Assembly: GCF_037975245.1 (NCBI RefSeq)
Contig: NC_092566.1
Coordinates: 18,509,001-18,573,000 of the forward strand
Source of the DNA: Apostichopus japonicus
Lineage: Eukaryota; Echinodermata; Holothuroidea; Aspidochirotida; Stichopodidae
Direction of reading: 5' to 3'
DNA: 64,000 nucleotides
Below, piece by piece: positions 1 through 49,910 of this stretch (position 1 is the stretch's first letter; each line of letters opens with the position of its first letter). The notes under the pieces were generated by a model that was not told the DNA's origin, ran no database searches, and worked only from the letters and a program-made list of their open reading frames with translations. Position numbers and translations under genes: made by a program.

Positions 1-282
1 TTTCAGAGTTTCTTGCAGCTCTTTAAATTCTTCCTCTGGCATAAGACCCCTTCCATTTATAGCATCCTTTCCCTCCACAAACCAATTACTAGTAAGAAAT
101 TGGAATAATTCTTTGCCAGAGATGTCTCTGGAACCTTGCAAAATATCCTGAGTTTGATTAGTATATGAAGTTGAACAAGGAAAAAACATATTGTCATTCA
201 TTCCCAGGACAGGGACACCCAAGGCACAGAGCAACCACAACCAGCAAGCATCTAAAAAGGTGGATTTGCAGAAAGACACCAT
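1..282 (-). CDS. N-terminal part of a predicted secreted protein (5' coding portion, runs off left edge)
   Basis: Reading leftward from an ATG at 282-280 there are 94 codons without a stop up to the window edge. The ATG has a good context (G at -3, G at +4). The protein starts with a signal-peptide-like segment: a short polar start, then a hydrophobic core DACWLWLLCALGVPVLG at about residues 11-27. After it come an N-glycosylation sequon (NQT, residues 42-44) and an acidic stretch MPEEEFKELQ near the edge. I do not recognise the family, so no function is given. It is divergently oriented to the J-protein gene, with about 1.28 kb between the two start codons, so they may share a promoter region. 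A splice donor inside the interval cannot be excluded, but none is needed because the frame stays open. Confidence 0.55.
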   Translation of the reverse strand, partial: MVSFCKSTFLDACWLWLLCALGVPVLGMNDNMFFPCSTSYTNQTQDILQGSRDISGKELFQFLTSNWFVEGKDAINGRGLMPEEEFKELQETLK

Positions 283-1565
283 TTCACTTCAAGGAACAGA
301 TGAAGTTAATGTACAATATACAACAAATTGTGTTGTAAGTAGATGATGCACTACACAGATCCCTGAAGCAAAGGAAACAAAAATTTTGTTAACAGCAGCA
401 TTCAACATATCATTTCAACCATCACATTAACAGGTATCAACTGTTTAAAGTTGGGAGAACACTGGCTAGGCCTAAGGTCTATGTGAAGTTAAATATGACT
501 TGTAGCTAAGTATGATAGCCTAGGCCTACTACTACTATAGTTAGTACCTAGAAGTTATAGAACACAAATCTGCTACGTAAATGCACGCGAAGGCTTGTTA
601 TGGGACTAGGCCTAGCCTAAATTGTAGGCCCAACTGAAGTTAGCTTTTTTCATTTAAACGTAGAAAACTTTAATTCGAACAAGGCTGACGGAGGACTTGA
701 CCATATAGGCTTAGGCTACGCCTACACCAATTTGTGTCACAATGAAACTTCTGACAGCAATTACGCAGATTGGCCAAGTTTTTGGATGGTTTCTGAAATA
801 AATTTACTGACTGAATAAACCTTTCCTGCACCGTTATTTATCATAACAGATGATAACTGTCCAAATGGTTGCTTACCCAAAGTGAAGAGCTAACAATTTA
901 GACATCTCACCAACCAATTAATGGAAGACCTCATGTGAGTCGACAAAAATAACAATAAGCCGGCTAGGATCTTGAAAACAAACATTACGCAATGGTGCTG
1001 TGGTTGAGCAGTGAAGGAAAGACAACAGTCCAGTTACACACTACTGACGTTTCGGTAAATTGTGCATGTCACACGTATTGTAAATTAGCACTCTAGCCTA
1101 GTCTAGGCTTCGTAGTTTTATCAGGCAATTTTTTTTTTTGGAAAATAAATATTGCGAATAAATAAGTAAAAAGTATTGCTTGTCAGGAGAAAATGACTGT
1201 AGTGTATTGGACTGTAAAGCGAAACAAAAAATCTCCTTATATTACCAGAATTCCATGAAGTTTGTGGATAAAAAGACTCAACATTTTGAATATAAGGCAA
1301 AATGATAGTCTAAAATGTCTAGATCTGTTGTAAGTTTCGAACTTAAGTTTACATCTGGAGTCTCTGTACTAGTAGTTTGTTCGACAACCCCCCCCCCACC
1401 ATCCCTATCTCTTGCGGACGCCAATGAGATGACGTTTACATGGGGAAAGATATAGATGATGATTGCTGCGTCTGAACGACATGTTGTGCATTTCAAATCA
1501 GAGACGTATATTTACGGCTCTGCTTCAAATTTCGTTATAGCGCCACAGTCTTCAATTTGTCAGAA
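283..1565. promoter_or_regulatory. Divergent intergenic/promoter region
   Basis: This 1.28-kb stretch lies between the ATG of the left-edge gene (-) and the ATG of the J-protein gene (+). It must contain both 5' UTRs and promoters unless a far-upstream exon exists. No clear TATA box was identified. It has a poly-C run near 1388-1397 and several AGGCCTA/TAGGCCT palindromic motifs (for example about 471, 522, 607 and, downstream, 1793). These suggest repetitive or regulatory sequence but prove neither. Short ORFs here look random. Confidence 0.4.
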
Positions 1566-4500
1566 ATGGAAGGTAACAGAGATGAGAGCGAACGATGTAT
1601 TCATCTAGCACAGAAATTCCACGCTTCGGGAGATAAGGAAAAAGCTAAGAAGTTTTTACTTAAAGCAGAGAGGCTATTTCCGTCTCAGAAAGCTTCAGGT
1701 ACTTGATACAACCCAAGTAACATGACTGCTTACTCATCATAGTTGTTCTCTTTGCTGTATAAAGTCACGTTAGGCTAAGTTACGTGAGGCATAGGCCTAG
1801 GCTAGTTGAAACCTTATGCTTGCTATGCTAGTATTTGCCACTTCCACACTACAAATAAAGCTAACATTAGCCTATGCTAGTAGTACTACTAGCATAGCAC
1901 TTGATGTAATGCACAATGTATATGCTTCGCCTCACAGTAACACTAACAGCAGCACAGGGTCTGACCAAAGGGAAATAATGGCTAAAGTGAAGGGGAATCA
2001 GTTAAACTCTTAGTTACACTCACAGTTTAGTGGGGTAGCAAACAAAATAATCATCACCAAAGTTTGCTGATGCTCAATCATACCATTTGGAATGATTTCT
2101 CATGCTGGCCAAAACTTCAACATGGTTTGGTAGTTTTCATTTGAATGTTTTTATCTTGACGTAGCCGTAGGCCTACATTTAAGAATGATCGAGATCGAAC
2201 TTGTGACATAAGTAACCCATAAAAGCTAGGCCTAAATTATGGCTTGATTAACATGAAATAATTAGTTGCTGGTGAGAGATAAGTTTGAAATATTTCATCT
2301 TCAGACTTCAAATTTTCACAGAATTTTTTTCCCCCTAGCTATAATAGTATTTCGTTCACTGGAACTGATAATTTTGTAACCGTTGATTTTGGACAATGAA
2401 ATCATAGATGTGTGGTTAATTCTTTAACTTGAGTCTAGGGCCCACATGGAAATCATGGTATTCAAATGGTGATTAATAAGTCATATAAGTTGATCCCTTG
2501 ATTGTTCCTAGTGTAGAATCATGTTCATTCACCCATTTTTGAAGTCATTGGTTCAGAAATTAATTAGTGATCTTTGAATTCTCAATTTATACACCATTTT
2601 ACTGTCACTACACAGACTTGCAATTTGAGTACAAAGATGAGTACAAAGTCCCATGAACCAGTATAAGTACGGTTACACTAGTGATGGGAATGGTCCCAAA
2701 GTTTGCTCTCTGGTACCTTTTTGCCCATTTCGGTCGAGCCCCTGGGTACTTGTTCATTAAGTATTCAACCTAAAATCCAACCTTGCGTCTACTATAAGGC
2801 CATACATAAGCCTAATGTTACACTTTACAGGCCTACAGTCGTGTATATGGTAAACAACTGTTAGTTTAACCTGTGAACTGATTCATATGGAAAGTTTACA
2901 TATTTGTATTTCTACTAACATTCCCAAATTACATTTTAAAATCAGCTCATTCTACGTTTTCCACCAATGGTGTTTTGTTAGCGATCAATGAAAAAGTTTC
3001 ATAATTAGTAAGGGTGAAAATCAACAGCCTTTCAAGTCTAACGGTGCAATGTGCCATTGAACGAATCACTGGTGAAAATGTGGTTTGCATGATTGAAGAA
3101 GTCCTTTAAGCATTTGTTGGGGGAATATTTGCATAAAATTGCTAAAAGTAAGCAATTGGAGACAGTTCAAAGTATTATTTGAAAACCAAAACTTTCTCAC
3201 AAGAAATTGTTGGCACTTATACAGCACAGTAATAACATACTTGTGACAGGCCTCTCCTACCTGGTCTTTCATAGCTGTGCACTATAGTTAGCGGTCCAGT
3301 GGGTCATAACTATTTATAGATTAGTTGGAAAGACTGTAGAAACTACATAAATGGTGATGTCCTACAGGTCATTTTGGATCAAGCACATGTCGCTTGATTA
3401 TTCAAGTATATAGAAAATTCAGTTCAACTTTTTGTGGGACTGATCCACTAAATTCAACACGGTGGTGGTCAACCTATAAGCTGCTCAAGAGTGCAGCTTT
3501 GGTCAAGTTTTGTTGAACTGAAAGTGTGCAAGCGCACAATGCAGAGGGATTGCTTAGGACCGAAAGTACAGTGAGCACATGTGCAAGTAAGCAAATGCAG
3601 TTGATCAAAACTTTGTCGGCAGGAATAAAAACCATTTTCACCAATCATTACACTTGAATACAACAAGATAGAAGAGAATATCACCAAATGATGAAATTAT
3701 TAAAAAAAATACCTGTACATAATTTTTTTCCTCACTTTCATTCATACAAAAAAAGTGTAACTGAAAATGGAGAACAACATATGTGATTTTTTACAAATTT
3801 CTGGACTGGGTAGTAAATGCTTAGACCGGGTAGTAATTTGGTGGGTCAGTCCCCGGGTTCTTGGGTACCGGTTCCCATCACTCGGTTACACAGTCTTGAG
3901 TATGCTAAATGTAAAAGTGTACTCAAATACAAGTACACCTGTAACTTGCTTTGATTCTGTAAGTCTTTCCCACTTACACACAAAGCAGATTCACAGCAGT
4001 GTATATGCCTACTTTGATGTTTTTTTCTAATTACATGACCCATTCTGTATATTAGAAAAATAAGAAAATGCTTGATTAATTTGAAGTACAGCTCACATTA
4101 TCATGAACTGAAGTTGATCTAGAACCTAGGTTCTCAACCTTTTTCTATCCAGGGACCCCTTGAGATAAACTGAAATGTTTGGAGGACCCCCGGACAATGA
4201 CCGCCGGCATGGGGGAGGGGTATAAGGGGAGGGGGTGTCCCCCTCCCCTTTGGATTTTTTTGTAATATTTGAGGGTTAGATGCGAAATGGTACATTATTT
4301 TGTGACTTTTGAAGTAAATTTATGTTCAAGAATTTATGTTTAGAAATGCATTTTTTTCTGGACCTGGAATGCAGTTTTCCTAGACCTGCAAGTATTGCTA
4401 GGCATAAGCCTACTTGGAAATTCTTACTTTCAAATTATATATTTCCCAATTAAATTTTAATTTGGAAGTGATGAGTTGTCAGATACAACTGGTTGATTCT

Positions 4501-7500
4501 GCATGGGGTCAGGAGAATTATGGGTTTTCTTTGTCAGAGATAGCTGCAGAGATAGCTGCTTTTGGTCAAATCCAAGTTAGTTGTAGCTTTTTCTCCACCA
4601 AATTTCAACTCAGTGATCAATTAAGTACCACCAGTCTTTATTACCATACTAGTGTTCCCCCTGGAACCAACCCGCCCATATAGTCCTGCGGGACTAGGTG
4701 GGCATATATAGGCAAAAATCTTATTTGATCTGTGCTACTGCCTTTCATCTTTATTACATCGAAATGAAAAATTGTAAGTGTATATATAGTCTTGGAAATT
4801 ACCAAAGTGGGCTACTATTGAACTCCAGTCCTAGTTCAGTGCATTGCTCAATAGCTTCCTCGTGATTCTGTAATCAAAGTCTTTATTCTTGAGACTTAAA
4901 AGCGCATAACGAATATAACAAACGGAACTCTAAGAAAACATTGGAAAAAATAATATAGCCAACAAATGAAAGAAACCTAGCTCTTGGATTCCAGTCCTTA
5001 TTCTGCTAAAGAGTCAGTGGCTCCCTTGAGCCTGTACATCAGCGACCAGTTTTTGTACGTTTGGCTTCACCTTTGTTACGGCCATCCGTAAGTCATTATG
5101 AATTGTGAGTTTGTTCCGGAACTTAGTTTTAATGTGCACAACGGCACTGAAAGTAGATTCTGCTAAGTATGTAGTTGCAAAAGGGATTATTGCTTTCTCC
5201 AAAGCGATCTTCGTTAAATTTGGGGCAATCAATGCTCCTTCAGCAATCCAGAATTTAGCATAGCCATGCCTTTCAAAATATCTTCTTTTGTTGATCGAGG
5301 ATTGAATTTCGATGAGTTCCTCCGCATCAGGAACATCTTCAAGTTTGGCACTAAATGGGTCAAGCACAAAACTATATTCATCTGCATCGGCAATATCTTC
5401 AAATCGTTCCAACATCTCAATTCGAAGAGCATTCAAGTGTGTCAATATAACAGTCTTCATTTCTGGTGTTAGTGATCTGTCTATGAAAAGTTCCGACAAC
5501 TCCTGGAACATACTGTAGTCATCCCTTTGTATCTTGTCACTCCAGAGTGAGAGTTTTCGGGTAAAAGCATCGACTGCCTGTTTACATGTTATGATGTTCA
5601 CAGATTCTCCCTGCAGCTTCATGTTCAGATTGTTATACTGGTCAAATATGTCGACAAGGTAAGCTAACTTGGTTTGAAAGTCGGCATTCAAAAATGCCTC
5701 GGCGTGATCACTCTTGATAACTTCTCTGAGCATTTCAAGAACGCTGGCCCGCAGTTCGAATAGCCGCGCAAGCGTTCTTCCCCTTGAGAGCCACCTCACT
5801 TCTGTATGAAGCAGGAGAGTTGTGTGCTCTTCGTCGTTTTCTTCGCATAATTTCTGGAACACTCTTGAGTTAAGCGCTTTTGCTTTGATCTCGTTGATCA
5901 CCTTGACACTTGTCTGAAGTACATCGTGGAGTTCAGGAGAGAGTTTCTTGGCAGCCAGAGCTTGTCTGTGGATCATGCAGTGTATTATCTTGCAATGAGG
6001 AGCAACGCCTTTCAATCGCGCGGTGAATCCACGATGTTTACCCATCATTGCCGCTGCCCCATCCGAGCAACATGCGACCAAATTGGTGTACGAAATTCCT
6101 TTTTCCTGGAAATATCCATCCACTGTTTCGAAAATATCTTCACCTCTCGTGGTTGTGTCAAGGTTGGAGGAAAACAGCAAGTCTTGATTCACCTCACCGT
6201 CAGTCGCGATGTACCGTACACATACGAGGAGAAGAGCTTCATTTGTTATGGTCGTTGTCTCATCTAACTGTATAGCAAATTTGATTTCCTTCAGTATGTC
6301 TACCAATTGTTTTTCACAATCGTTCGCCATACTGTCGATCCTACGTTTAACAGTGTCATTCGATAGAGGCACATTCTTTATCTTCTCTGCGGCATTTTTT
6401 CCGCACAAAAGCGACACAACATCAATTAAAACCGGTTTGAGCAATTCCTCCCCAATACTATGTGGCTTTTTGGCCTTCGCTATGGCCAGACTTGCTATGT
6501 ACGACGCCTCCGTGCACTTTTCCAGCTCCGAAGTACATTTCCTGAAAGCAGTATCAATGGTGGCTGGTCTTCTTGCCAAATACAGCTCCATTTTCCTCTG
6601 CAAAAATACACGAATACACAACAGTGGTTCCTAGCGGTTTATCAATCCTTTCTAATTAGATTTTTATGTCACACAATACTTCATGAACATTAATGATATT
6701 AGGTTCTAGCTAGGCCCCACCCCCTCATTGATATGCGTAAAACTAAATGAAACATAATTATACACCCACTACACTGCAAACTCAGGCGTTCAACTTTTGA
6801 ACAATTGAATGTAGCAGATATAGAACGCGTTCTGGCCTTGAAAACATATTTTGAACGCTAGTTTTAAGATTCTGAACACTCTGACGCGTTCAAAATTTGA
6901 ACACCATCGGGAAACTTTGACGAAATCGGGAAAATGACCGTTCCGTTAATAACCTCCTCCCCCACCCCCTGAGAAATGAACCTAGATACGCCACTGAACA
7001 TAGAGCTACTGTTACACTGTTCATTAACTGAACGGCACTGCTGTAATTCGCTACGTGTTTATTCATTACACGCTTGCAGCTGTTCGTGAGTTACTGTTAT
7101 AACAATTAGGTTGGGACATCAAAGATATAGAAGTGAAAATATATGTCAATAACTGTCAGTCAAAGAGTGAAGTGTTATAGTTATCAGTTACTTACATTGA
7201 AATATTCAATGTCATGATTCCTCGAACCACCATGCTTCGTTTCCAGGTGCCGCTGCATCTTCGAGGGTTTCATTGCATCGTTGCTCAACACCTCGCCACA
7301 TAAGAAACATTCCGGTTTATTTTCATCAAATTGGGACTTGATAAATCCAAATTTGACGTATTCCTTCTTGTAACATCGAAGCTTCTGCTTCCCTCTTGAA
7401 TCGCGTTTAGACATCGCGGTAGTTAAGTTAACCAGTTATCCATGTGTTCTGCACGAAGCTACTGTATTGTGTAGTCACTGATCTTGAGTGTAGTGTGTAA

Positions 7501-10500
7501 CAATGTAAGTTGTGTTTCAACATTAGGACAACGCACTTAGCGTGGTAGCCTATACTGCCGCACACAGTCTGATTTTGCTAGCAGGTACAGCTGTTAGATC
7601 GAAGTCGCATGTGATTGGACAGTGCAACGTCGCTTATAACTACCGCGCTTCACTGTGTCAACAGTGAGCAACGCATCATAGTTATTGCTCTGCATATTAA
7701 GATGTATAGTTTGCAGTTACGTTGTACACAACACTCACACATACCTCACCGAATGTATACCAATGAGAAACTATATTACTTGTTTTCATCGGGGAACTCA
7801 CGATTCAACATTTATCGACTACTGACGAATCGATACGGTCTGATCATCAGGGTCCGACGTATTGACGGCTAGCCTAGCCTAGATTTCTAGAGGCATACGG
7901 TACATACTTCTTCATTCGACTATATCTCTCATTCCATTTTTCACAAACCTCTTCGTTCTTCGCGGACCCTTATTTTTTTCACGGACCCTTATTTTTTTCG
8001 CGGACCCCCTGCGGACCCCTTTGCCCTCACGGACCCCCAAATGAATTTCACGGACCCCCTAGGGGTCCGCGGACCCCAGGTTGAGTAACCTGGATCTAGA
8101 ATATAACATGTGTGGATTGAATATCACTGAACTTTAAATTAAACAGTCAGGGAGGGCCATGTACAGATAACAAGTGTAGATTTAGAATAAAACTGCTTTC
8201 CAACTTGTAATTTTAGCTTTCTATTGACTTATTAATTATGTATTTCTTTGTCATAGTTATGGATGTAGTGGGATAATTCTGCATTACGTGGTATTGATAT
8301 TCAGTGTGTGTGTGTGTGTCTTTGATTCTATAGATTTGTTAGCCAGTTTAAGTCAAACAGATGATGAGGAGACATCAAGTTCTACACAGTCAGATTCTCC
8401 TAGCCAGCCTGGTTCTGCACCAGGAAGCCCAAAGGTGCGGCGCCGAAGCAAACACCAACCAGAGGAGCAGGAAGTCAATGGGGATGCAGCAAGAACATAT
8501 ACTGATCAACAACTAAATGATGTCAATAGGTATGAGCAGAGAATACTACCTTAGCTCAGGATTCATGAATGCTGTATTTATTCAAATGACAGAATTGTAG
8601 CAAAATATGCCAAAGATTGAACAAAGGTTTAATAGGTTGAGATAGTTTGAATTTACAGTATGTAACTACTGTACTATACTGGTGACTATATATTGTAGTC
8701 TGCAGTACAGGTTATACTTTGACAGTGAAGACTATAATTTGTAAGTAAAGACTATACTTTGACAGTACATTCTATGCTTTGACAGTAAAGACTATACTTT
8801 GACAGTGAAGACTATACTTTGACAGTACATTCTATACTTTGACAATAAAGACTATACTTTGACAGTACATTCTATGCTTTGACAGTAAAGACTATAATTT
8901 GTAAGTAAAGACTAGATAAGTACTTTGACAGTACATTCTATACTTTGACAGTGAAGACTATACTTTGACAGGGTAGACTATGCTTTGACAGTGAAGACTA
9001 TACTTTGACAGTGAAGACTATACTTTGACAGTACATTCTATGCTTTGACAGTGAAGACTATTATTTGACAGCAGTGTGTAAAGTTGTGAGGAATCATGAG
9101 TAGCTTTATGGATCTTCATATCCAGTTACTCATTGTTTAACTAGACTATCAGTGCTGGTGGACATATCAGTGAGTTAAGCTATCACATCAAACTTGTATT
9201 CTTTGTGTAAAACCCTTTAACTTTCTTATAATCCCTCCACAGAATAAAACAATGCAAAGATTTCTATGAAATATTAGGGATACCGAAAGATGCCAGTGAT
9301 GTTGACGTGAAGAAAGCCTACCGTAAACTTGCCCTACAATTTCACCCTGATAAGAACCATGCTCCTGGTGCTAGCGAGGCCTTCAAAGGTATGAGTACTG
9401 TAATTAACATTAAGTGTTCTATCTTTCTATCATTATTAATGAACTTTTCTTAATGTTTCAAATATATCATATGAGAAGTTAATGATAGTGTCTGTTATGT
9501 GACTGGGTTTCTCTTCTATGGATGTGGAAATGAGTTATCCAAAGCAGCTAGGAAATCATGGCTAGTTTAAAGGCCTCCACCGCATTAACTTCATCATGTG
9601 TAAAGCCTTATAAAAAGTATTGAATAATAATTGTTTATCTTGCAGCCATTGGAAAGGCATTTTCAGTTTTAAGTGATACCACAAAGAGGAAAAGATATGA
9701 CATGTATGGGAATGAGGAGGAGAATGTTCAAGTCCACAGACCTAGAAGACAGTACTATCATCATAACGGCTTTTACTATGAGACCAGAGGATTTGATGAT
9801 GGTATGTACCTCTCTTTAAGAGTAAACTTATAAGAGTATATTGGTAACTAGAGGATTTGATGATGGTACATGTACCACTCTTTAAGTGTAACTTAAAGGA
9901 GTATATATTGGTAACTGGAGGATTTGATGATGGGTTTTACCTCTCTTTAAGAGTAATTTAAAGGAGTATATATTGGTAACTAGAGGATTTGATGGAGTAT
10001 ACCTCTACTTAAGGGTAAACTTTAAGGAGTATATTGGTAACTAGAGGATTTGATGATGGTATGTACCTCTCTTTAAGAGTTAACTTAAATGAGTATATAT
10101 TGGTAACTACAGGATGTGATGATTGCATGTACCTCTCTTTAAGAGTTAACTTAAAGGAGTTTATGTTCGTAACTAGAGGATTTGATGATGGGTTTACCTC
10201 TCTTTAAGAGTAATTTAAAGGAGTTTATATTGGTAACTACTAGAGGATTTGATGATTGCATGTACCTTTCTATAAGAGTTAACCTAAAGGAGTTTATGTT
10301 TTTAACTAGAGGATTTGATGATGGTATGTACCTCTCTTTAAGAGTAAACTTAAAGGAGTATATTCGTAACTAGAGGATTTGATGAAGACAATATAAAATA
10401 TGTGGCTCAGATCTGGTGTGCCTCTATAAGGTTAACAAGCAGTGATGATATTGAGAATCCAATAAAAATATTTCACTTGCTTCATTAATTTGCAGATGAC

Positions 10501-13500
10501 TTCTCAGCTGAGGATTTATTCAACATGTTCTTTGGAGGTGGAATGCCTTCAGATAGGGTGTATGTAAGACGGAGACAAAGAGGACATCATCACAACGCAC
10601 ACCATATACACCATGATCGCAGTAATGGGGTAAGTACATGCACTACACACACCAAATACATCATGATCACAGTAATGGGGTAAGTACATGCACAACACAC
10701 ACCATATACATCATGATCACAGTAATGGGGTAAGTACATGCACAACACACACCATATACATCATGATCACAGTAATGGGGTAAGTACATGCACAACACAC
10801 ACCATATACAACATGATCACAGTAATGGGGTAAGTACATGATAGCAGTAATGGGGTAAGTTCATGCACAACACCCACCATATACATCATGATCGCAGTAA
10901 TGGTGTAAGTACATGCACAACACACACCATATACATCATGATCGCAGTAATGGGGTAAGTACATGCACAACACACACCATATACATCATGATCGCAGTAA
11001 TGGGGTAATTACATGCACAACACACACCATATACATCATGATCGCAGTAATGGGGTAAGTACATGCACAACACACACCATATACATCATGATCGCAGTAA
11101 TGGGGTAAGTACATGCACAACACACACCATATACATCATGATCGCAGTAATGGGGTAAGTACATGCACAACACACACCATATACATTATGATCGCAGTAA
11201 TGGGGTAAGTACATGCACAACACACACCATATACATCATGATCGCAGTAATGGGGTAAGTACATGCACAGCACACACCATATACATCATGATAGCAGTAA
11301 TGGGGTAAGTACATGCACAACACACACCATATACATCATGATCGCAGTAATGGGGTAAGTACATGCACAGCACACACCATATACATCATGATAGCAGTAA
11401 TGGGGTAAGTACATGCACAACACACACCATATACATCATGATCGCAGTAATGGGGTAAGTACATGCACAACACACACCATATACATCATGATAGCAGTAA
11501 TGGGGTAAGTACATGCACAACACACACCATATACATCATGATCGCAGTAATGGGGTAAGTACATGCACAACACACACCATATACATCATGATCGCAGTAA
11601 TGGGGTAAGTACATGCACAACACACACCATATACATCATGATAGCAGTAATGGGGTAAGTACATGCACAACACACACCATATACATCATGATCACAGTAA
11701 TGGGGTAAATACATGCACAACACACACCATATACATCATGATCGCAGTAATGGGGTAAGTACATGCACAACACACACCATATACATTATGATCGCAGTAA
11801 TGGGGTAAGTACATGCACAACACACACCATATACATTATGATCGCAGTAATGGGGTAAGTACATGCACAACACACACCATATACATCATGATCGCAGTAA
11901 TGGGGTAAGTACATGCACAGCACACACCATATACATCATGATAGCAGTAATGGGGTAAGTACATGCACAACACACACCATATACATCATGATCGCAGTAA
12001 TGGGGTAAGTACATGCACAACACACACCATATACATCATGATAGCAGTAATGGGGTAAGTACATGCACAACACACACCATATACATCATGATCGCAGTAA
12101 TGGGGTAAGTACATGCACAACACACACCATATACATCATGATCGCAGTAATGGGGTAAGTACATGCACAACACACACCATATACATCATGATAGCAGTAA
12201 TGGGGTAAGTACATGCACAACACACACCATATACATCATGATCACAGTAATGGGGTAAGTACATGCACAACACACACCATATACACCATGATCGCAGTAA
12301 TGGGGTAAGTACATGCACAACACACACCATATACATCATGATAGCAGTAATGAGGTAAGTACATGCACAACACACACCATATACATCATGATAGCAGCAA
12401 TGGGGTAAGTACATGCACAACACACACCATATACACCATGATCGCAGTAATGGGGTAAGTACTTGCACTACACACACCATATACATCATGATAGCAGCAA
12501 TGGGGTAAGTACATGCACAACACACACCATATACATCATGATCGCAGTAATGGGGTAAGTACATGCACTACACACACCACTACACACACAATAAATCCAT
12601 GTTCTCAGAGGATAAAATATCTTTAAAAGTATATATTTTCTAATAAGCTTTATATGTTTATAATCTATTTATCTAGATAATGTATATAATATAATAAGCT
12701 ATATAATCATTGCCAGTGAACCCTTGTTTTAGAGTACACCAACTCTAATATGAAAGTGTCTCAGATTCAGCATTTGAGTATGTCAGTCAAATGACTTAAT
12801 TGTTGCTCGTTACAGTACTTTTGGTGAAATCGGCAGAGTAGACTCTTCATCTTGGCTGGAGAACTTCTGGCTAAATAAATACTTAGATAAATTTAGCAAC
12901 ATAATGCAGAAAGCTGCATATAGAAATCCACACATTGGCATGGATTGTGTTTGCTAGAAGATGGTTCACACAACATTTGTGATTAACATGAGCAGAGGAG
13001 GTAATTGCATTTGATGTGTATTTATTTCTCTTCTGCAGACAAACGCATACTTCATCCAGGTACTCCCTATTCTAGTTCTATTGGCAATATCACTGATATC
13101 AGCCCTGCTGGTACAAGACCCTTCCTTCAGTTTAAGAAGATCTCAGTAAGTACTCCCACAGTCTCTCTATCTCTCTCTGATAGTATAATGCAACTTCATT
13201 CCACTTACCAGCTATCTACTTACTAGTGCTATAGCAATAGCTACATGTTAAACTATAGGTTAGACTTGGTACATCTGACAACATGGTAGGCTAAGTAATG
13301 ATTTGTTTGTTTTCAAAGGTATCAAATAATTCTAAGATAATGAAGAGCTCTTGAGATATGCCTACCTCAAACCATATAACAACTTTTGTTGAAGTATGTG
13401 TGTTACCAAATGATGGTATGTTGCCAGATAAAATGACTACAAGGGATCTCAAAACATTGTTTCATGATGGAAATGTTTCTAATGTTTAGATTGTATTGCA

Positions 13501-15971
13501 TATGTTGACATAGGAGCATTATTTGTACTCTTGAAGACGTGTAGGAATAGAGCAGTATGACTGGACAGGAATCAAATTTAAAGTATGCTGACATACAGTT
13601 ATATGTAAGCTTTCCCTCCTCCAAACAACATATACTCTGTACAGTTATATGTAAGCTTTCCCTCCTCCAAACAACATATACTCCATACAGTTATATGTAA
13701 GCTTTCCCTCCTCTGAACAACATATACTCCATACAGTTATATGTAAGCTTTCCCTCCTCTGAACAACATATACTCCATACAGTTATATGTAAGCTTTCCC
13801 TCCTCCAAACAACATATACTCCATACAGTTATATGTTAGCTTTCCCTCCTCCAAACAACATATACTCCATACAGTTATATGTAAGCTTTCCCTCCTCCAA
13901 ACAACATATACTCCATACAGTTATATGTAAGCTTTCCCTCCTCCAAACAACATATACTCCATACAGTTATATGTAAGCTTTCCCTCCTCCAAACAACATA
14001 TACTCCATACAGTTATATGTAAGCTTTCCCTCCTCCGAACAACATATACTCCATACAGTTATATGTAAGCTTTCCCTCCTCCAAACAACATATACTCTGT
14101 ACAGTTATATGTAAGCTTTCCCTCCTCCAAACAACATATACTCCATACAGTTATATGTAAGCTTTCCCTCCTCCGAACAACATATACTCCATACAGATAT
14201 ATGTAAGCTTCCCTCCTCCAAACAACATATACTCCATACAGTTATATGTAAGCTTTCCCTCCTCCAAACAACATATATTCTGTACAGGTTTCCCTCCTCC
14301 CAACAACATATATTCCAAGTAAACAAATTTCTTGATACTCAGTTACAAGGATTACAATTAGCGGAGCAACAATCTTACAAGTGGTGAGAACACTAACTAT
14401 GTGTCTTATGACTTCACAAGTTAACAATAGCATATTGTACTTATATGTTTCTACTATTATCACTCTTGTTGCAGAGCATACATCAATGAAAGGATAACAT
14501 CTAAGGGCAACATAAAATATTATGTTAAGGTAAGAACAACGTCCATTTATTCTCTTCATTGTCAAGCTCTGGTCCAATAGCTTCAGTGTAGTAATTCCTA
14601 TGAGTACTGCAGATTTTACTTTCCTTAACATCTCCCAAATCTCCAGAAATATCTTCTGTCTGAGTACTCGCTGGACCTGCTCGTTTGCAGAGAATTGACA
14701 TAATACACTATATACTTGGTAACAATTGTTAATGAATAATCATCATTGGTTAAATCATCAACAACTGTGTTTGGTTGAGCTCACTAAAAGCTACATAAAG
14801 CTTTGTTCCTTGATATGATTAAGGTGAACCTTATTCGTTCAAAATGTTGTGTTAATATGTTAGCACTTTCTATTGCAAATTAAAATATTTTCTGGTACGT
14901 AAATAATAGCACACTCTAGGTATAAGGTAAAGCCCAATGCAACTGTCATGGAGTCGTATGACAAAGAGTTGATTTGTGTAGTGGGCATTCAAAAGGTCAC
15001 GTACATACGGTCTGGGGGCATGGCTAGGAGTGTAATGGAGTCTTATGACAGAGTTGATATGTGTAGTAGGCTTTCAAAAGGTCACATACATACGGTCTGG
15101 GGGCAATGGCAGCAGCACATTTTGTTTATGTTGTGTAATGTGTAACAAACTTGTCTTGTGGAACTATAATATCAATACAAAACAACAGCGATGTATTTTG
15201 TGTGTAGACTTTAGTGTGATGTCATTTTGCAGAGATAAACAGGCTTTGTATCTACAATATTTTATTTTCTCTTTTCTCTTGCAGAAAGACTTCCTGAAAA
15301 ATTATCAAGGAAGAGTGCACATGGTTGAACGTGAAGTTGAAAAAGAATATTTGCAACATTTACGAAGCTCATGTTATGAAGAAAAGTATAAAAGTAAGTG
15401 ATCTGTCATTCTGACGAGCAAGGAGATGATTTAAACCTTAAAACCTGTCATTTTAGAATTTGTCTCATTGATTGCGAGTATGTCATCCATCAATACATTT
15501 AAACAGCTTTTAAGTTGATTTTGCTCAATTTATATTTGACTCCACACAGAGTGTTCACGACAAAGTCAGTTCAGTAGCTTCACTAACTAATCATATTTCT
15601 ATTCCAAGTTATCAAGTCAAGTCAACCACTTCTGATACCTTGTCTGGGCGTAAAGGTGTTTTATAATTCATAATTGGAATCATTAATACTTACATTATCG
15701 GTGAAGATTTAGTGGATAAATTTCAAGTAGGATCATCAAGTGATTCCTCAGAATTTAGCTGACATAACAGGTATTAGTAAGATAAGTATGTTTAAACCGG
15801 GAAATTAATCACTGGTTTTCTCTTCTTTCTTCTTTGACTTTTGCAGAAGAAAATATGAAGCAAAGAGGACGTTATTTTGGTGATCGGAAATTATTTGAAG
15901 AAGGCAATAGAATGACGACACCATCTTGTGATAAATATACAGAAATATATAAGACTTTATCAGCTGGTTGA
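1566..15971 (+). CDS. DNAJB14: DnaJ homolog subfamily B member 12/14-like, ER-membrane J-protein (complete, 9 exons)
   Basis: Nine coding exons join in phase: 1566-1698, 8334-8529, 9243-9388, 9646-9801, 10496-10629, 13039-13145, 14475-14529, 15285-15393, 15847-15971 (stop TGA). They total 1161 nt, or 386 aa, close to vertebrate DNAJB14. The protein opens [11 protein letters not shown] as in the family. It has a basic/Ser-rich linker, a J domain at about 110-180 with HPD at 144-146, a Gly/His-rich stretch (about 230-255), one hydrophobic helix at about 258-280, and a DUF1977-type C-terminal domain. In this family the J domain faces the cytosol and recruits Hsp70 to ER-associated degradation and membrane-protein folding. 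All introns are GT-AG. Introns 2, 4, 5 and 6 carry minisatellites; intron 1 carries transposons. Whether it is the single pre-duplication orthologue of DNAJB12 and DNAJB14 would need a tree. Confidence 0.93.
2679..3883. mobile_element. Non-autonomous hAT-type element in intron 1 (1205 bp)
   Basis: It is flanked by a perfect 8-bp direct repeat GGTTACAC (2671-2678 and 3884-3891). The ends are inverted: TAGTGATGGGAATGGTCCC on the left and, reverse-complemented on the right, GAGTGATGGGAACCGGTACC. No transposase-like ORF is present. An 8-bp target duplication and short terminal inverted repeats are typical of the hAT superfamily. The boundary logic is strong; the superfamily assignment is inferred. 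Confidence 0.75.
4125..8093 (-). mobile_element. Autonomous-looking hAT (Charlie/Buster/ZBED5-like) DNA transposon, 3969 bp
   Basis: Perfect 8-bp target duplications ATCTAGAA lie at 4117-4124 and 8094-8101. The terminal inverted repeats resemble the Charlie-type consensus: left CCTAGGTTCTCAACCTTTTT, right (reverse complement) CCAGGTTACTCAACCTGGGG. Both subterminal regions repeat a GGACCCC-type motif. The element carries a two-exon transposase on the minus strand. It sits in intron 1 of the J-protein gene in antisense orientation. Confidence 0.9.
5014..7414 (-). CDS. hAT transposase, BED finger plus RNase H-like catalytic domain (two exons, apparently intact)
   Basis: Exon 1 is 7414-7196 (73 codons, starting [10 protein letters not shown]). 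Exon 2 is 6597-5014 (527 codons plus stop). The donor AAT|GTAAGT and acceptor TTTTTGCAG are both in phase 0, giving a predicted 600-aa protein after removal of a 598-bp intron. Exon 1 holds a BED-type zinc finger (C36, C39, H56, H61; pattern CFLC...HLETKH). Exon 2 shows hAT catalytic-core signatures: [45 protein letters not shown], and a C-terminal dimerisation motif AESTFSAV. It resembles the SCAND3/ZBED5 group of domesticated hAT transposases. No stop or frameshift interrupts it and both TIRs and TSDs persist, so recent activity is plausible. It is more likely a transposon gene than a domesticated host gene. Confidence 0.88.
8690..9070. repeat. 20-bp minisatellite in intron 2 of the DNAJB14-like gene
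   Basis: About 19 degenerate copies of a unit close to ACTTTGACAGTAAAGACTAT. Variants with GTACATTCT or GTGAAGACT alternate. It lies between exons 2 and 3 and is not related to either exon. Confidence 0.85.
9243..9388 (+). CDS. DNAJB14: Exon 3 of the DNAJB14-like gene: J domain core with HPD
   Basis: This exon begins after CCACAG and ends AAAG|GTATG. It encodes KDFYEILG, the helix II segment [17 protein letters not shown] and the loop [11 protein letters not shown]. The HPD tripeptide (residues 144-146) that stimulates Hsp70 ATPase is intact. Exon 4 (9646-9801) completes the domain with [11 protein letters not shown] and [13 protein letters not shown]. Confidence 0.93.
9785..10385. repeat. 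Minisatellite of about 62-70 bp derived from the exon 4 end and its 5' splice site
   Basis: About ten copies. The first is the genuine exon/intron boundary: exon 4 ends with AGAGGATTTGATGATG (9786-9801) followed by GTATGTACCTCTCTTTAAGAG. Every unit repeats this pair and then ends GGAGTATATTGGTAACT. A GTATGT donor survives in the real site (9802) and in copies near 10059 and 10324. Other copies carry changes such as GATTGCATGT or GATGGGTTTAC. Confidence 0.88.
10590..12585. repeat. 50-bp minisatellite derived from the exon 5 end and its 5' splice site (about 40 donor-type sites)
   Basis: The unit is CACACACCATATACATCATG followed by ATCGCAGTAATGGG and the donor GTAAGTACATGCACAA. The first copy is the real exon 5 terminus (donor GT at 10630-10631). 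Roughly the last 39 exon bases plus the first bases of the intron are tandemly copied to about 12585 with high identity. One unit near 10851 is shortened. I count 40 sites of the form TGGGGTAAGT or near variants. Reading through from exon 5 meets TAA in the second unit. Confidence 0.93.
13039..13145 (+). CDS. DNAJB14: Exon 6 of the DNAJB14-like gene: transmembrane helix
   Basis: The acceptor is TTCTGCAG and the donor is CTCA|GTAAGT. The exon encodes [19 protein letters not shown] followed by [13 protein letters not shown], the single membrane segment of DNAJB12/14 proteins. It starts in phase 0 after exon 5 and leaves two bases that are completed by exon 7. Confidence 0.9.
13575..14312. repeat. 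46-bp minisatellite in intron 6 of the DNAJB14-like gene
   Basis: About 15-16 copies of a unit built from ACAGTTATATGTAAGCTTTC plus CCTCCTCCAAACAACATATA plus CTCCAT. It is highly uniform except at the right end. It ends about 160 bp before exon 7. The unit contains ATGTAAGC, which looks weakly like a splice donor, but it is not derived from a flanking exon. Confidence 0.88.
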
Positions 15972-27800: not shown

Positions 27801-30800
27801 TTAAGGACATCTCCAAAGTTGGTGAATGGAGGAACACCGTCAAATAAAACAGGTGGAAGAAATGTGAGTTGTTTACTCAGCAAATTTGGGGGTGTAGGTC
27901 CTGCTGGTAGACTTGATCCCTAAGAGAGAGACAGGGAACTTTTGTGAATGTAGTCATGGTATAAAAGTATATCAAAGATGTTTTACATATTTACATAAAC
28001 ACGGTATTCCAAACACCACCCATCTGAAATATGATTTAAATTAGTCCCTTTTACACATCACATATATGTAGTTTAGTTGATTTTTTTGGCAAGAGTTAGG
28101 AAGCTTACAGAAGCAGATTTGAACCATATCTCTATGTGATAATCTTGGATAACACTGACTTATAGCAAGCCTTGGTTATTCATTTAGTGTTCAGAGAATT
28201 ATGGAGGCAGGGTTGTAACTGACGCAAGAGAAGCATCTCCCTGATGGGGTTGTAGCGTGAACAGTCTAACTGATACAATCTCTATTCACCTACAAGCTAG
28301 TTTTACCATCTCCCTGGTGGGGTTGTAGCGTGAACAGTCTAACTGATACAATCTCTATTCACCTACAAGCTAGCTTTACCATCTCCCTGATGGGGTTGTA
28401 GCGTGAACAGTCTAACTGATACAATCTCTATTCACCAACAAGCTAGCTTTACCATCTCCCTGGTGGGGTTGTAGCGTGAACAGTCTAGCTGATACAATCT
28501 ATATTCACCTACAAGCTAGCTTTACCATCTCCCTGGTGCGGTTGTAGCGTGAACAGTCTAACTGATACAATCTCTATTCACCAACAAGCTAGCTTTACCA
28601 TCTCCCTGGTGCGGTTGTAGCGTGAACAGTCTAACTGATACAATCTCTATTCACCTACAAGCTAGCTTTACCATCTCCCTGGTGCGGTTGTAGCGTGAAC
28701 AGTCTAACTGATACAATCTCTATTCACCTACAAGCTAGCTTTACCATCTCCCTGGTGCGGTTGTAGTGTGAACAGTCTAGCTGATACCATCTCTATTCAC
28801 CTACAAGCTAGCTTTACCATCTCCCTGGTGGGGTTGTAGCGTGAACAGTCTAACTGATACAATCTCTATTCACCAACAAGCTAGCTTTACCATCTCCCTG
28901 GTGCGGTTGTAGCGTGAACAGTCTAACTGATACAATCTCTATTCACCTACAAACTAGCTTTACCATCAACCTGGTGCGGTTGTAGCGTGAACAGTCTAGC
29001 TGATACAATCTCTATTCACCTACAAGCTAGCTTTACCATCTCCCTGGTGGGGTTTTAGCGTGAACAGTCTAACTGATACAATCTCTATTCACCTACAAGC
29101 TAGCTATACCATCTCCCTGGTGCGGTTGTAGCGTGAACAGTCTAGCTGATACAATCTCTATTCACCTACAAGCTAGCTTTACCATCTCCCTGGTGGGGTT
29201 GTAGCGTGAACAGTCTAGCTGATACCATCTCTATTCACCTACAAGCTAGCTTTACCATCTCCCTGGTGGGGTTGTAGCGTGAACAGTCTAGCTGATACAA
29301 TCTCTATTCACCTACAAGCTAGCTTTACCATCTCCCTGGTGGGGTTGTAGCGTGAACAGTCTAGCTGATACAATCTCTATTCACCTACAAGCTAGTTTTA
29401 CCATCTCCCTGGTGGGGTTGTAGCGTGAACTGTCTAGCTGATACAATCTCTATTCACCTACAAGCTAGTTTTACCATCTCCCTGGTGGGGTTTTAGCGTG
29501 AACAGTCTAGCTGATACAATCTCTATTCACCTACAAGCTAGTTTTACCATCTCCCTGGTGGGGTTGTAGCGTGAACAGTCTAGCTGATACAATCTCTATT
29601 CACCTACAAGCTAGTTTTACCATCTCCCTGGTGGGGTTTTAGCGTGAACAGTCTAGCTGATACAATCTCTATTCACCTACAAGCTAGCTTTACCATCTCC
29701 CTGGTGGGGTTGTAGCGTGAACAGTCTAACTGATACAATCTCTATTCACCTACAAGCTAGCTTTACCATCTCCCTGATGGGGTTGTAGCGTGAACAGTCT
29801 AACTGATACAATCTCTATTCACCAACAAGCTAGCTTTACCATCTCCCTGGTGGGGTTGTAGCGTGAACAGTCTAGCTGATACAATCTATATTCACCTACA
29901 AGCTAGCTTTACCATCTCCCTGGTGCGGTTGTAGCGTGAACAGTCTAACTGATACAATCTCTATTCACCAACAAGCTAGCTTTACCATCTCCCTGGTGCG
30001 GTTGTAGCGTGAACAGTCTAACTGATACAATCTCTATTCACCTACAAGCTAGCTTTACCATCTCCCTGGTGCGGTTGTAGCGTGAACAGTCTAACTGATA
30101 CAATCTCTATTCACCTACAAGCTAGCTTTACCATCTCCCTGGTGCGGTTGTAGTGTGAACAGTCTAGCTGATACCATCTCTATTCACCTACAAGCTAGCT
30201 TTACCATCTCCCTGGTGGGGTTGTAGCGTGAACAGTCTAACTGATACAATCTCTATTCACCAACAAGCTAGCTTTACCATCTCCCTGGTGCGGTTGTAGC
30301 GTGAACAGTCTAACTGATACAATCTCTATTCACCTACAAACTAGCTTTACCATCAACCTGGTGCGGTTGTAGCGTGAACAGTCTAGCTGATACAATCTCT
30401 ATTCACCTACAAGCTAGCTTTACCATCTCCCTGGTGGGGTTTTAGCGTGAACAGTCTAACTGATACAATCTCTATTCACCTACAAGCTAGCTTTACCATC
30501 TCCCTGGTGCGGTTGTAGCGTGAACAGTCTAGCTGATACAATCTCTATTCACCTACAAGCTAGCTTTACCATCTCCCTGGTGGGGTTGTAGCGTGAACAG
30601 TCTAGCTGATACCATCTCTATTCACCTACAAGCTAGCTTTACCATCTCCCTGGTGGGGTTGTAGCGTGAACAGTCTAGCTGATACAATCTCTATTCACCT
30701 ACAAGCTAGCTTTACCATCTCCCTGGTGGGGTTGTAGCGTGAACAGTCTAGCTGATACAATCTCTATTCACCTACAAGCTAGTTTTACCATCTCCCTGGT

Positions 30801-33800
30801 GGGGTTGTAGCGTGAACTGTCTAGCTGATACAATCTCTATTCACCTACAAGCTAGTTTTACCATCTCCCTGGTGGGGTTTTAGCGTGAACAGTCTAGCTG
30901 ATACAATCTCTATTCACCTACAAGCTAGTTTTACCATCTCCCTGGTGGGGTTGTAGCGTGAACAGTCTAGCTGATACAATCTCTATTCACCTACAAGCTA
31001 GTTTTACCATCTCCCTGGTGGGGTTTTAGCGTGAACAGTCTAGCTGATACAATCTCTATTCACCTACAAGCTAGCTTTACCATCTCCCTGGTGGGGATGT
31101 AGCGTGAACAGTCTAGCTGATACAATCTCTATTCACCTACAAGCTAGCTTTACCATCTCCCTGGTGGGGTTGTAGCGTGAACAGTCTAACTGATACAATC
31201 TCTATTCACCTACAAGCTAGCTTTACCATCTCCCTGGTGGGGTTTTAGCGTGAACAGTCTAACTGATACAATCTCTATTCACCTACAAGCTAGCTTTACC
31301 ATCTCCCTGGTGGGGTTTTAGCGTGAACAGTCTAACTGATACAATCTCTATTCACCTACAAGCTAGATTTACCATCTTCACAGGTAAAGCAATAATGTAA
31401 AATGCAATCCTTTTCCTTTCTTGAACATTTTACCTTTTTCAGAGCCTTGGAGAGCTTTTCATACTGGTTCAGGTAAGCTTGTAATGTGTGAGGACCATAA
31501 ATGGTTGATGCACCCTCATACCTTTGCACCTGTGGAAGCAGATTACAAATGCCATACATTTAGTTTCCTTTAAAACAACATATTTGTATCACATGTAATC
31601 TAGGACATCAGGAAAAGTTTCGTTCTGATAAACATTTGACACACTAAACTACAAAATGCAGTTCCACTCTATCTGAAGAAAGAAATTCTAAATACTAAAA
31701 TATAAGAACTTTAATACAGTTGAAACATTGTATGTACCTTTAATCAACCCAGCCATACCCTGACTCGATATTCATATATAGAAAATAACAGTATGATATC
31801 TGCAATGATGAACAAATCATAAACAAATAATGGAACTGAGAGTTCTTCTCTATCAAACTAAGCCTGTTCCACTAACTGATCAGTAGAGGCTTACTAGCTG
31901 GGTCTACTATACCATCAGCTGAGGATTTTCTCTCTGTGGATTATGTCTTAAAGTATTCTTTTATAGTGAGGCCAAGCTACCTAAGGGAAGAATAATTCTC
32001 TGCCACTAATATCTCACCTGGTATTCTTCATACGTGGTTATATAATCACTGTATGTGTTTGACAGACCAGCAATAACTGTAAACAGACTCTCTTCTGATT
32101 TTAGAGCCTAGAAAAGCAAATGTAATAAAAAGAAAGTAAAAGGCTTCTAATAATAGAAGTTTTCTTATATCCTTTTTTGTAACCCTTTCTCTATATTTTT
32201 TATTTTCCAAAGCTTCTTCCTCCAAGACTAAAGGTTGACAATGGCAATTTCTTTTGATATATTTGACAATTCTTCATGGCAAGTCTATAGCAACCACATA
32301 ACTTCTATTCTCTCAACTGCCTTTTTTATTGGTTATGATGGTTGCATATTGTAACAACAACAGCCTTTGTATTGGTTATGATGGTTGCACACAATAACAA
32401 CAGCCTTTGTATTGGTTATAATGGTTGCACACAATAACAACAGCCTTTGTATTGGTTATGATAGTTGCACACAATAACAACAGCCTTTGTATTGGTTATG
32501 ATGGTTGCACACAATAACAACAGCCTTTGTATTGGTTATGATGGTTGCACACAATAACAACAACTTCCCTTGTATTGGTTATGATGGTTGCCAACAATAA
32601 CAACAACAGCCTTTGTATTGGTTATGATGGTTGCCCACAATAACAGCAACAGCCTTTGTATTGGTTATAATGGTTGCACACAATAACAACAGCCTTTGAA
32701 TGGGTTATGATGGTTGCACACAATAATCACAACAATGGCCTTTGTATTGGTTATGATGGTTACATACAATAACAACAACAGCCTTTGTATTGGTTATGAT
32801 GGTTGCCCACAATAACAGCAACAGCCTTTGTATTGGTTATAATGGTTGCACACAATAACAACAGCCTTTGAATGGGTTATGATGGTTGCACACAATTATC
32901 ACAACAATGGCCTTTGTATTGGTTATGATGGTTACATACAATAACAACAACAGCCTTTGTATTGGTTATGATGGTTGCCCACAATAACAACAACAGCCTT
33001 TTTATTGGTTATGATGGTTGCCCACAATAACAACTGCCTTTGTATTGGTTATGATGGTTGCCCACAATAACAACTGCCTTTGTATTGGTTATGATGGTTG
33101 CACACAATAACAACAACAGCCTTTGTATTGGTTATGATGGTTGCCCACAATAACAACAACAGCCTTTTATAAGGTTATGATGGTTGCACACAATAACAAC
33201 AACAGCCTTTGTATTGGTAATGATGGTTACAATAACAACAACAGCCTTTGTATTGGTTTTGATGGTTGCACACAATAACATGATTATACTGTCACAAGTA
33301 CAGTGTATAAATGAATGTGAGTAACTAGTTGAAATAAAGATTTAACATAGCTAGATCTTGATTAAAGGAGTTGTTCAATTAACAAATTACCTTCTTGACA
33401 GTATTTATCATTCTTCGTCCAGACATGGTCCTGTTAAATATGATAAAGAGAAATTAAGAAGCAAAGTTTAGTCTCGAGATGGATCCTGAAATTAATCTTT
33501 GACTGTATCTGTGTACTTCTCCTGGTTATATTAACTTGTCAATACATAAACCAACTGAAGAGAAACCATTTGACTTGTGACAAAGCACTTTATCAATAAT
33601 TTAGGGACTAAAGACTTAAATCAAATTCATAGGTATTGCAAATAAACCATTAACCAAAAAGTAAACCCTCACGTGAATTCTCCAGGCACTGGAATAATGA
33701 CAAGCTGTCCAACTTTCAGCAGCATGGTGTCCACAATGTTGGGTGTCCATGAATATGGAAAAGTGGTCTGGAAACAAGAAATAGAAATGCTAACAGATAT

Positions 33801-44872: not shown

Positions 44873-46507
44873 AACTCTGCTGCTGGTAAACGAACAGTCG
44901 AAGTTTTGTACTTGTTAAATGTAGCTGCTGCAGTGTAACGTTAGACTAAGCTAGGAATGAACATGTAATTTGTAGGCTTAGCCTGTGTGTGTTTGTACTA
45001 GTGATTGGTGAACTCGTGACATCATGACGTCTAACCAACCAACTACGGAGGTTTTGTTAGATCGGTGCTCCAAGTCAATCATTCTTTTCGTCGGCGTCAG
45101 TACGTCGATAGTGAGACCATAAAATCGTACCAACCAGGGAGGTTCATATTAGTAGACGTGCTTTCTTGTAGCACTCAACTCTTATATTATGAGATCTGCT
45201 TGCGGTACGGGGGAGGGGTATTGATGCACCAATTCATGAATAATCAGTCATGCAGCTGAAGTTGGCAACCGCTCACTGCGATTCTACATTGCGCGTTCGG
45301 ATCTTTCTCTGCATGCGCCTGTATATGAACTGTTTAAATCAACGAGTTTAATGATTCATTTACCTCAATGGTGTATATATGCGGTCACCTTTCCTCGCGC
45401 GTTATCATTCGGTTTCGACGTTAATGCGTTTGTTTTTATTATATGATTTGAATTTACACGTACACCCTTTAATTTACCCCAGTCTTTAATTAAGCCCCGG
45501 TCTTGAGGTTGCATGAATTTTCATCAAAAAACCTTCCATGCAGGTAATTGTCAGTAGCTTTCCAGTAATTCGGCAGCCGGTTTGGTTTACAGTACATCAC
45601 TGCGAATAGATCACCATTCCGTGATGTTTTGTCTATGTGTAATTTTACGACATCATTTGGAGTGAAATGCTCCAGTCATGTAACTGATCCACACCCCAGT
45701 GACCCCACAGTCGCGGTAATAAGCCTTAATGTGGATCAGGATTGGTTGAAGGGGTACACAATTCAAAGCGAAAGGTTATATTAACATTCACGAATGTGCC
45801 ACTTTCCACAATACAGATTCGCTCAGATGGAGTGTTTCGTACCGACACTGTGAAATATTTCGCCTAACGCAATAGCGTAAGCTTACAGATTTAATGAGCC
45901 GTTAACAGGCAGTCAAGGATATCAATGAATTCCGACCGACTTCATAACGCTGTACGGTAACCGATTAACCCTTTTTATTTCTGTGTATATTAATCCATCC
46001 ATCCATCCATCCTCGAGGTGTATCTGTTGTGATTGTAACACTAGGCTACATAGTATAGCAAGTAGGGTGCCAATATGTGCGTGCGAAAACACGATCGACA
46101 TAAGGATGAAATGGTAGGCTAGCTTTAAAGATCTGCCTAATTGGCTCCAATTATTGCACGCTATAGCTAGGAAAGTTTTTGTGATTACGTAATCGACCTG
46201 CCACGGTCGTAAATCAACCCCAGGCTCTACAATTAGCCTGCATAGCTTTTTAACACCATTAGGCTTTTTGTGTAAACACTGTGAATATGTTCATGTCTAC
46301 ATTGTAGTTAAACATCCATCGTTCACACAAAGACCCTCATACAAAAAAATATATGTGGCAGGCAGTGCAGACAAATTGGTAAATAGAGGTCATTTTACAA
46401 CCTAAGGGTCTTCGATTACATAATCTCAAGAAACATTTCCATGATAGTGTGCTATAGTACTATTTGGGGTCCATACAGCCGAGACCTTTAAACTTATATT
46501 TCATAAA
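44873..46507. promoter_or_regulatory. Upstream region of ceramidase copy 1
   Basis: It must contain the promoter and 5' UTR of copy 1 on the minus strand. No gene was recognised. An (ATCC)n microsatellite lies near 45990-46010. No reliable TATA element was identified. Confidence 0.35.
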
Positions 46508-46784
46508 TCAAGAGATTGAAACATTTTACCCTGGTTTTTCATCACTGACATAAAAGTTAACAAAAGATGGTTGTGTTGAGCTCTCTTTATGTTATGTATC
46601 CGTTAATTTATGTTTTTGCTATATCTCGTTTCAGAATGTGATTTCACATCCATCCAAGGTATTTTAGTATTAACATGAATACCCATAAGTGTCATAATTG
46701 TGCTATTTTAACATGGTTATTTCAATATCAAAGTTATGTAGTTAGTTCTATAGCTGTAGTGACATTGTTTAGTTTTTTGTTTAA

Positions 46785-47550: not shown

Positions 47551-47559
47551 GATCATTAC

Positions 47560-49018: not shown

Positions 49019-49267
49019 ATTACTGTAGGTATTAACAAACTCCATTCCCAAAGTACATACTACTGTAATTACATGTGCAATCAATAATAATATGTCAATA
49101 TTTTGAAACTAACTGACATTAGTCTCAACCTGAGACTTTTGTAATTGCTGGGTAAATTTAACAATGATAATGTTTTGTCTGTTGGTCTTGCCATGGATAT
49201 AATGAGCTTAAACATCCGTACTACCTCTCTAGATGTCGTAGTAGTAGTGTGGATCCCACTCAGTTAA

Positions 49268-49605: not shown

Positions 49606-49910
49606 TATTTGAAAGCCCAGTCAGTTCTGGCATACAGTTCATTATGGTGTGTAATGGTCTGGAATCTTCTTGTTGCAATTGGGCAATGACAGCCCACTCA
49701 GTTAAGGTATTGAAAGCCCAGTTAGTCCTGGCATGTTCATTGTGGTGTGTAATAGTCTGGAATCCTCTTCTTCCAATAGGGCAGTAACAGCCCACTCAGT
49801 TAAGGTATTGAAAGCCCAGTTAGTCCTGGCATGTTCATTGTGGTGTGTAATAGTCTGGAATCCTCTTCTTCCATTAGGGCAGTAACACCAATCCTCCCAA
49901 CCCACAATCT
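49605..49910. repeat. Short block 2 copy of the 99-bp array
   Basis: Three diverged units with GGCATGTTCATTGTGGTGTG and AATAGTCTGGAATCCTCTTC. Small indels break the long ORFs seen in block 1. Confidence 0.8.

Follow-up and report, generated by a model that had tools for sequence, protein, structure and literature searches.

Minisatellite-like tandem duplications of exon–intron boundaries, termed 'mirages', have been described in amphioxus in the genes for Adh3, the globins BflGb6 and BflGb9, troponin C and PGBD5, where they are reported not to disturb splicing (PMC3087553, PMC3902484). They lie on both sides of introns (PMC3087553) and comprise 3 and 6 units in BflGb6 (PMC3087553) and 2 to 7 in PGBD5 (PMC3902484). 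Boundary duplications have also been linked to intron gain: in the potato RdRp gene, a single duplication that crosses a boundary and brings splice signals along created a new intron (PMC4974935). Human segmental duplications contain variable internal tandem repeats that include boundary minisatellites able to alter gene structure, with 30-bp units and 4 repeats on average (PMC2812944), and a survey in C. elegans ties intronic minisatellites to multiple splicing decisions (PMC4039745). Among the papers listed in searches of the open literature we saw no echinoderm case of a boundary-spanning minisatellite.

The array analysed here lies in a 64,000-nucleotide stretch of the genome of the sea cucumber Apostichopus japonicus (hereafter the window, with positions counted from its first base), at the 5' splice site of exon 5 of a DNAJB12/14-like gene. 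Its sequence makes it look like a mirage, that is, a known kind of structure in an apparently new animal group. It shares with the amphioxus mirages a boundary-spanning tandem unit, splice signals in the copies and a real copy at the array edge. It differs in its host, an echinoderm rather than a cephalochordate; in that two consecutive introns of one gene carry arrays; in that only donor-side cases were met; and in its 40 copies, a number far above those given for BflGb6 and PGBD5. The potato duplication likewise crosses a boundary and carries splice signals, whereas the frame here needs no new intron or exon; the passages on the human boundary repeats mention no extended row of intact donors.

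Joining exons by frame and splice consensus gave a model of nine exons on the forward strand (1566–1698, 8334–8529, 9243–9388, 9646–9801, 10496–10629, 13039–13145, 14475–14529, 15285–15393 and 15847–15971), with a predicted coding span of 1566–15971 and an intact frame of 386 codons without a stop. The product matches the J domain (DnaJ, 9.2e-26) and the C-terminal DUF1977 (1.7e-23) of Pfam, and its best PDB match by sequence is the DNAJB12 J domain (2ctp, 6e-27). Together with known features of such proteins, these matches suggest a DNAJB12/14-type chaperone of the ER membrane. As judged by eye, the end of exon 5 codes for a His-rich stretch with a hydrophobic, membrane-like segment directly after it. 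The intact frame uses the exon 5 end at 10629, which supports this position as the exon boundary. Intron 1 of the gene holds, on the minus strand at 5014–6630, an open reading frame of 538 codons resembling a hAT transposase, with a weak Pfam match under the curated cut-off.

The exon 5 array occupies positions 10591–12587 of the forward strand, as delimited by TRF, a junction pattern and register, and consists of 40 junction copies and a terminal partial unit. The 50-bp unit comprises 39 exonic and 11 intronic bases in register with the exon 5 end; the last 39 bases of exon 5 (10496–10629) form the first unit, and copy 1 is the real boundary. TRF reports a period of 50 in two adjoining rows (10591–10840 and 10837–12579). 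Searching for the 24-base junction pattern CATGATNNCAGTAATGGGGTAAGT with at most 3 mismatches gave 40 hits in the window, always on the forward strand and between 10612 and 12560, compared with a mean of 0.00 in 100 shuffles. GTAAGT is kept in 38 of the 40 donors, one of these copies carrying T at −1; the remaining two donors are GTAATT and GTAAAT. The unit with donor 10855 is a 25-bp partial copy, and between the real copy (donor 10630) and the array consensus there are 2 mismatches in 50 positions. The sequence-only reading had described a 50-bp unit made of the last 39 or so bases of exon 5 plus its GTAAGT donor, repeated into a row of about 40 near-consensus donors, and this description is borne out. 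Two features of mirages, a tandem unit spanning the boundary and a splice signal in its copies, are present. The units of a transposon-borne introner would be dispersed at many sites; a 100-base query of two units against the 671.6-Mb assembly returned at least 20 matches, all at this single locus.

A second, more degenerate mirage array lies at the exon 4 end (9786–10385, forward strand; TRF, frame and donor string), and introns 4 and 5 of the DNAJB12/14-like gene each open with a boundary-spanning array. The intron 4 array has a 66-bp period, 9.2 copies and 82% matches (TRF) and starts inside exon 4, its unit beginning at the exon end, AGAGGATTTGATGATG/GTATGT (the slash marks the boundary). 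The exact donor string GATGATG/GTATGT occurs in it at just 3 places, the real donor included, which makes this array look older or less homogenised. Its start inside an exon, like the existence of a name for such structures, had escaped the sequence-only reading. A 46-bp array in intron 6 (13592–14315, forward strand; TRF and frame) touches a possible cassette exon at 14288–14380 and is not counted as a mirage, because the conserved protein needs no such exon. The reading of 14288–14380 as 'exon 7' with a third mirage was dropped, since joining exon 6 to 14475 keeps the frame and the C-terminal DUF1977. The segment could be an in-frame cassette exon of 31 codons, starting in the last 46-bp unit and ending at a weak donor, and it could be minisatellite-derived.

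Similar anatomy was found in other genes of the genome. The sample comprised 60 loci, taken as the 30 best among 70 myosin-head matches and the 30 best among 59 SNF2 matches. A screen flagged 8 of the 60; read by eye, two of these proved to have further long arrays at the donor and another two a donor present in two copies. One long array, at an SNF2 exon ending in LILSGTPIQ before GTAAAT (L061), has a 44-bp unit with 32 copies of ACAG/GTAAAT and reaches the locus edge (TRF); the exon piece copied there encodes this conserved SNF2 motif. The other, at a myosin exon (L016), has a 53-bp unit with 19 copies of CTAG/GTAWGC (TRF). Both start in the exon and continue past the donor. The two-copy cases are a 105-bp stretch present twice across the donor of a minus-strand gene (L064; TRF) and one extra donor copy 220 bp downstream of the original, absent from the TRF rows (L037). 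At three loci (L051, L055 and L071) arrays lie near the boundary and not clearly across it, and one flagged locus (L043) was left out of the counts as ambiguous. At L061 and L064, which are different SNF2-family loci, the donor duplications sit at an apparently homologous exon end, which reads SGTPIQ at the first and TGTPLQ at the second. Their copies carry ACAG/GT, an acceptor and a donor back to back, as recursive splice sites do.

A genome-wide search for AGGTRAGT occurring three times at 35–65 bp spacing gave 1070 places and the reversed control 775; these are counts of overlapping places, and one array makes up a large share of those listed. Overlapping places dominating the comparison, a genome-wide excess of donor-motif arrays was discarded as weak. 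Five of the eight loci given by the search were read and proved to be four distinct arrays, one of which follows a coding exon (the other three were judged by eye). The pattern search led to an exon matching the Saf4/Yju2 family (2.8e-12; L075, region G000:C1:1922719), at which GAAG/GTGAGT is present in 12 copies; this family comprises splicing factors.

Donors and acceptors were compared over the window and the sample. In the window, 2 of 45 junction strings had boundary-spanning copies within 5 kb, and these were the donors of exons 4 and 5; dropping two strings from the doubtful exon 7 leaves 43, with 2 of 21 donors and 0 of 22 acceptors. This set omits the exon 1 donor and unmodelled ceramidase exons, and two of its donors (c6D and c15D) are placed roughly. 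In the sample, a consensus filter left 48 donors and 54 acceptors (12 of the 60 exons lacked a donor and 6 an acceptor). Junction 30-mers, of 18 exonic and 12 intronic bases, had repeats nearby at 5 of the 69 donors and at none of the 76 acceptors (Fisher p 0.023, window and sample together); the five cases are not independent, with one gene contributing two of them and related SNF2 exons two. In the sample by itself, 3 of the 48 donors and none of the 54 acceptors show such repeats (p 0.10). The long myosin array (L016) falls below the 77% cut-off over the 18 + 12 bases and is not among the five; adding it by eye gives 6 of 69 (p 0.010).

Shifting the start of the 30-mer gave, for donors (of 69) and acceptors (of 76), 5 and 0 at −30, 5 and 0 at −18, 6 and 0 at −12, 7 and 0 at 0 (p 0.005), 6 and 0 at 15, 5 and 1 at 30, 5 and 3 at 60, 11 and 2 at 100 (p 0.007) and 9 and 6 at 150, the p values being uncorrected over the twelve offsets. 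Further inside the introns, at 200 (13 and 14), 300 (11 and 16) and 400 (14 and 16), the two sides are alike at 16–21%. Low-complexity 30-mers were set to zero in this test, a step that may depress the acceptor counts; without the filter, acceptors again stood at zero, with 0 of 54 in the sample and none at any window acceptor string. An attraction of arrays to donors was rejected, since random 30-mers were repeated more often (297 of 2400 in the sample flanks and 736 of 3000 in the window) than those crossing donors. Avoidance of acceptors fits the counts better. Read plainly, the arrays fill introns from either side, shun the acceptor region and may run over the donor into the exon.

This pattern fits a rule by which an extra downstream donor does no harm but additional acceptors, or damage to the branch-point region, do. 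Among near-equal 5' sites in human data, the upstream one is preferred under exon definition, with a preference of only 60% over all events, and 3' sites also show an upstream preference (PMC9225289). The latter would make the wrong pick in a row of acceptors placed before an exon, and the former would on its own be too weak for clean splicing against 39 competitors. The mean intron of 1,319 bp in the 2017 A. japonicus assembly (PMC5638244) is taken as long enough for exon definition.

The consequences of using the other donors were computed by following the frame through each. Of the 40 donors, the authentic site alone, GGG/GTAAGT at 10630–10635 on the forward strand, preserves the 386-codon frame, and all 39 others truncate it: via the second donor the frame stops after 283 amino acids at a TAG inside exon 6 (13039–13145), and via each of the other 38 it stops after 272. 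The earlier expectation that every alternative donor would yield a truncated frame therefore holds throughout. A premature stop well before the last exon junction generally leads to nonsense-mediated decay, and as each of these stops precedes the last junction by 234 nt or more, such decay is to be expected here. A simple matrix for donors assigns 5.6 to 36 of the 40 sites, including the authentic one, and 7.8 to one; the remaining three do not reach the cut-off of 4. Across the 38 full intronic units there are 36 variants over 50 columns, of which 4 lie within the 9 donor columns (6.5 expected if evenly spread) and 2 of these 4 within the six GTAAGT bases. The array donors thus show neither clear conservation beyond the rest of the unit nor a purge. 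Predicted RNA folding of two array stretches was not unusual (z +0.78 and +0.51).

From the sequence we infer, with good confidence, that the exon 5 array is a fast-evolving minisatellite that would have been born by slippage between similar 14-mers flanking the donor and is probably tolerated because the exon-proximal donor is the one used. The exonic unit start CACAACGCACACCA and the intronic terminal partial unit CACTACACACACCA match at 12 of 14 positions, a degree of likeness reached by 5 of 44026 pairs of 14-mers 50 bp apart in the window outside arrays; the match is in keeping with slippage or unequal exchange involving a pair of similar CA-rich stretches, one on each side of the donor, and the partial unit could itself be a copy or by-product of the duplication. 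On this model, CACAACGCACACCA would have misaligned with the similar intronic 14-mer 50 bp downstream, duplicating everything between them, the donor included, and later unequal exchange or slippage would have amplified the array and homogenised its interior. Under exon definition the spliceosome would pair the acceptor of exon 5 with the donor closest to it; donor 1 would then mainly be used and the other 39 removed as intron, while transcripts mis-spliced to array donors would stop early and be cleared by nonsense-mediated decay. The array would persist because 5' splice sites tolerate such arrays, the acceptor end being kept free. Support for this explanation comes from an array in exact register with where exon 5 of an intact gene ends, from the second boundary array in the neighbouring upstream intron, from the same anatomy in other genes, from the human preference for upstream 5' sites under exon definition (PMC9225289) and from the undisturbed splicing reported for amphioxus mirages (PMC3087553, PMC3902484). 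Against it count the modest size of that human preference, the reliance of the donor–acceptor contrast on five non-independent donors and the presence of amphioxus mirages at both kinds of boundary (PMC3087553).

The early stops at all 39 alternative donors and the near-equality of the donor scores would also fit regulated unproductive splicing, with some transcripts using array donors, stopping early and decaying, and array length setting chaperone expression; the upstream-donor preference being only partial (PMC9225289) would leave room for such use. We consider this unlikely, as the array donors show no sign of conservation above the rest of the unit, donors of unrelated genes carry similar arrays and amphioxus mirages reportedly yield normal mRNA (PMC3087553, PMC3902484). 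The 38 GTAAGT sites within 2 kb might instead serve as a landing strip for U1 snRNP, which would strengthen the definition of exon 5 or suppress premature intronic polyadenylation. This appears very improbable, given that in the intron 4 array the exact exon-end donor persists at only 3 places while the gene frame is intact. The proposal in the sequence-only reading that the array modulates expression through unproductive splicing or U1 binding is thus left without positive support: the donor columns vary like the rest of the unit, folding is ordinary and unrelated genes are alike. The same arrays at donors of unrelated genes point to a general mutational process rather than to a device of the DNAJB12/14-like gene.

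The tolerated minisatellite also has to be set against two readings that concern the array's reality and its fate. Near-identical arrays are hard to assemble, so the copy number may be off, and the array could be smaller or absent in the animal; its units, though, vary in an irregular pattern, the assembly fits a published HiFi assembly of A. japonicus in size and contig number (PMC10344927) and like arrays occur elsewhere in the assembly, all of which leaves an artefact with very little probability. Scarcely more probable is a nascent gain of introns or exons, in which array units are becoming new exons or introns, as has been proposed for the amphioxus globins. Boundary duplications have been linked to intron gain (PMC3087553, PMC4974935), but the 386-codon frame uses no array-derived exon, and no new intron or exon made from a duplicate was found in the conserved frame.

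Choice among 5' splice sites is commonly studied with pairs of near-equal competitors. Such competing pairs have been compared in human data (PMC9225289); the arrays described here provide, in several conserved genes, naturally occurring rows of near-equal donors at fixed spacing, from a dozen up to about 40 in number, which could expose a nearest-donor rule and its error rate from RNA data. A broader proposition, which we put forward tentatively and hold to be rather doubtful, is that in the sea cucumber minisatellites grow almost freely at 5' sites, the 3' end of introns being barred to them, and that several percent of exons therefore carry tandem donors, some by the dozen. Splicing would then have to follow a near-absolute nearest-donor rule, or many genes would bear a constant cost in unproductive splicing, varying with array length and from one individual to the next. 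If the donor–acceptor contrast is true genome-wide, it would show by selection alone that the two intron ends obey different rules, and would take mirages past amphioxus into a second group of deuterostomes.

About 29% of the window lies within 26 tandem arrays (as listed from TRF), its GC content is 0.385 and it is depleted of CpG (observed/expected 0.36). Scans of the window gave no Rfam match at gathering thresholds and no tRNA, and a pattern scan of viral contigs gave no match. Elsewhere in the assembly, a contig of 31,219 bp (G000:C29) has several partial COX1 matches, besides the mitochondrial contig (C35, 16,099 bp), and is either a nuclear copy or an unmerged mitochondrial contig. COX1 on C35 reads through with AAA as N, AGA as S and TGA as W, the code of echinoderms, which flatworms share, and amphioxus was rejected as the source on this ground. 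On the minus strand at 20000–43400 and 46000–64000, the window contains a neutral ceramidase gene in two tandem copies, with Pfam PF04734 in one exon of copy 1 and PF17048 in one exon of copy 2. The copies are 72–96% alike among the first 80 DNA matches listed, and the pair may stem from a recent duplication or from the assembly process. Ordinary intronic arrays differ in length between them, with 37 against 52 and 23 against 7 copies in this one individual's assembly. In an intron of copy A, 43 copies of a 73-bp unit form an array (28234–31377) of which no unit is recognisable at the corresponding place in copy B (56953–56980); by sequence comparison this array was apparently born or lost since the gene duplication, and such arrays turn over.
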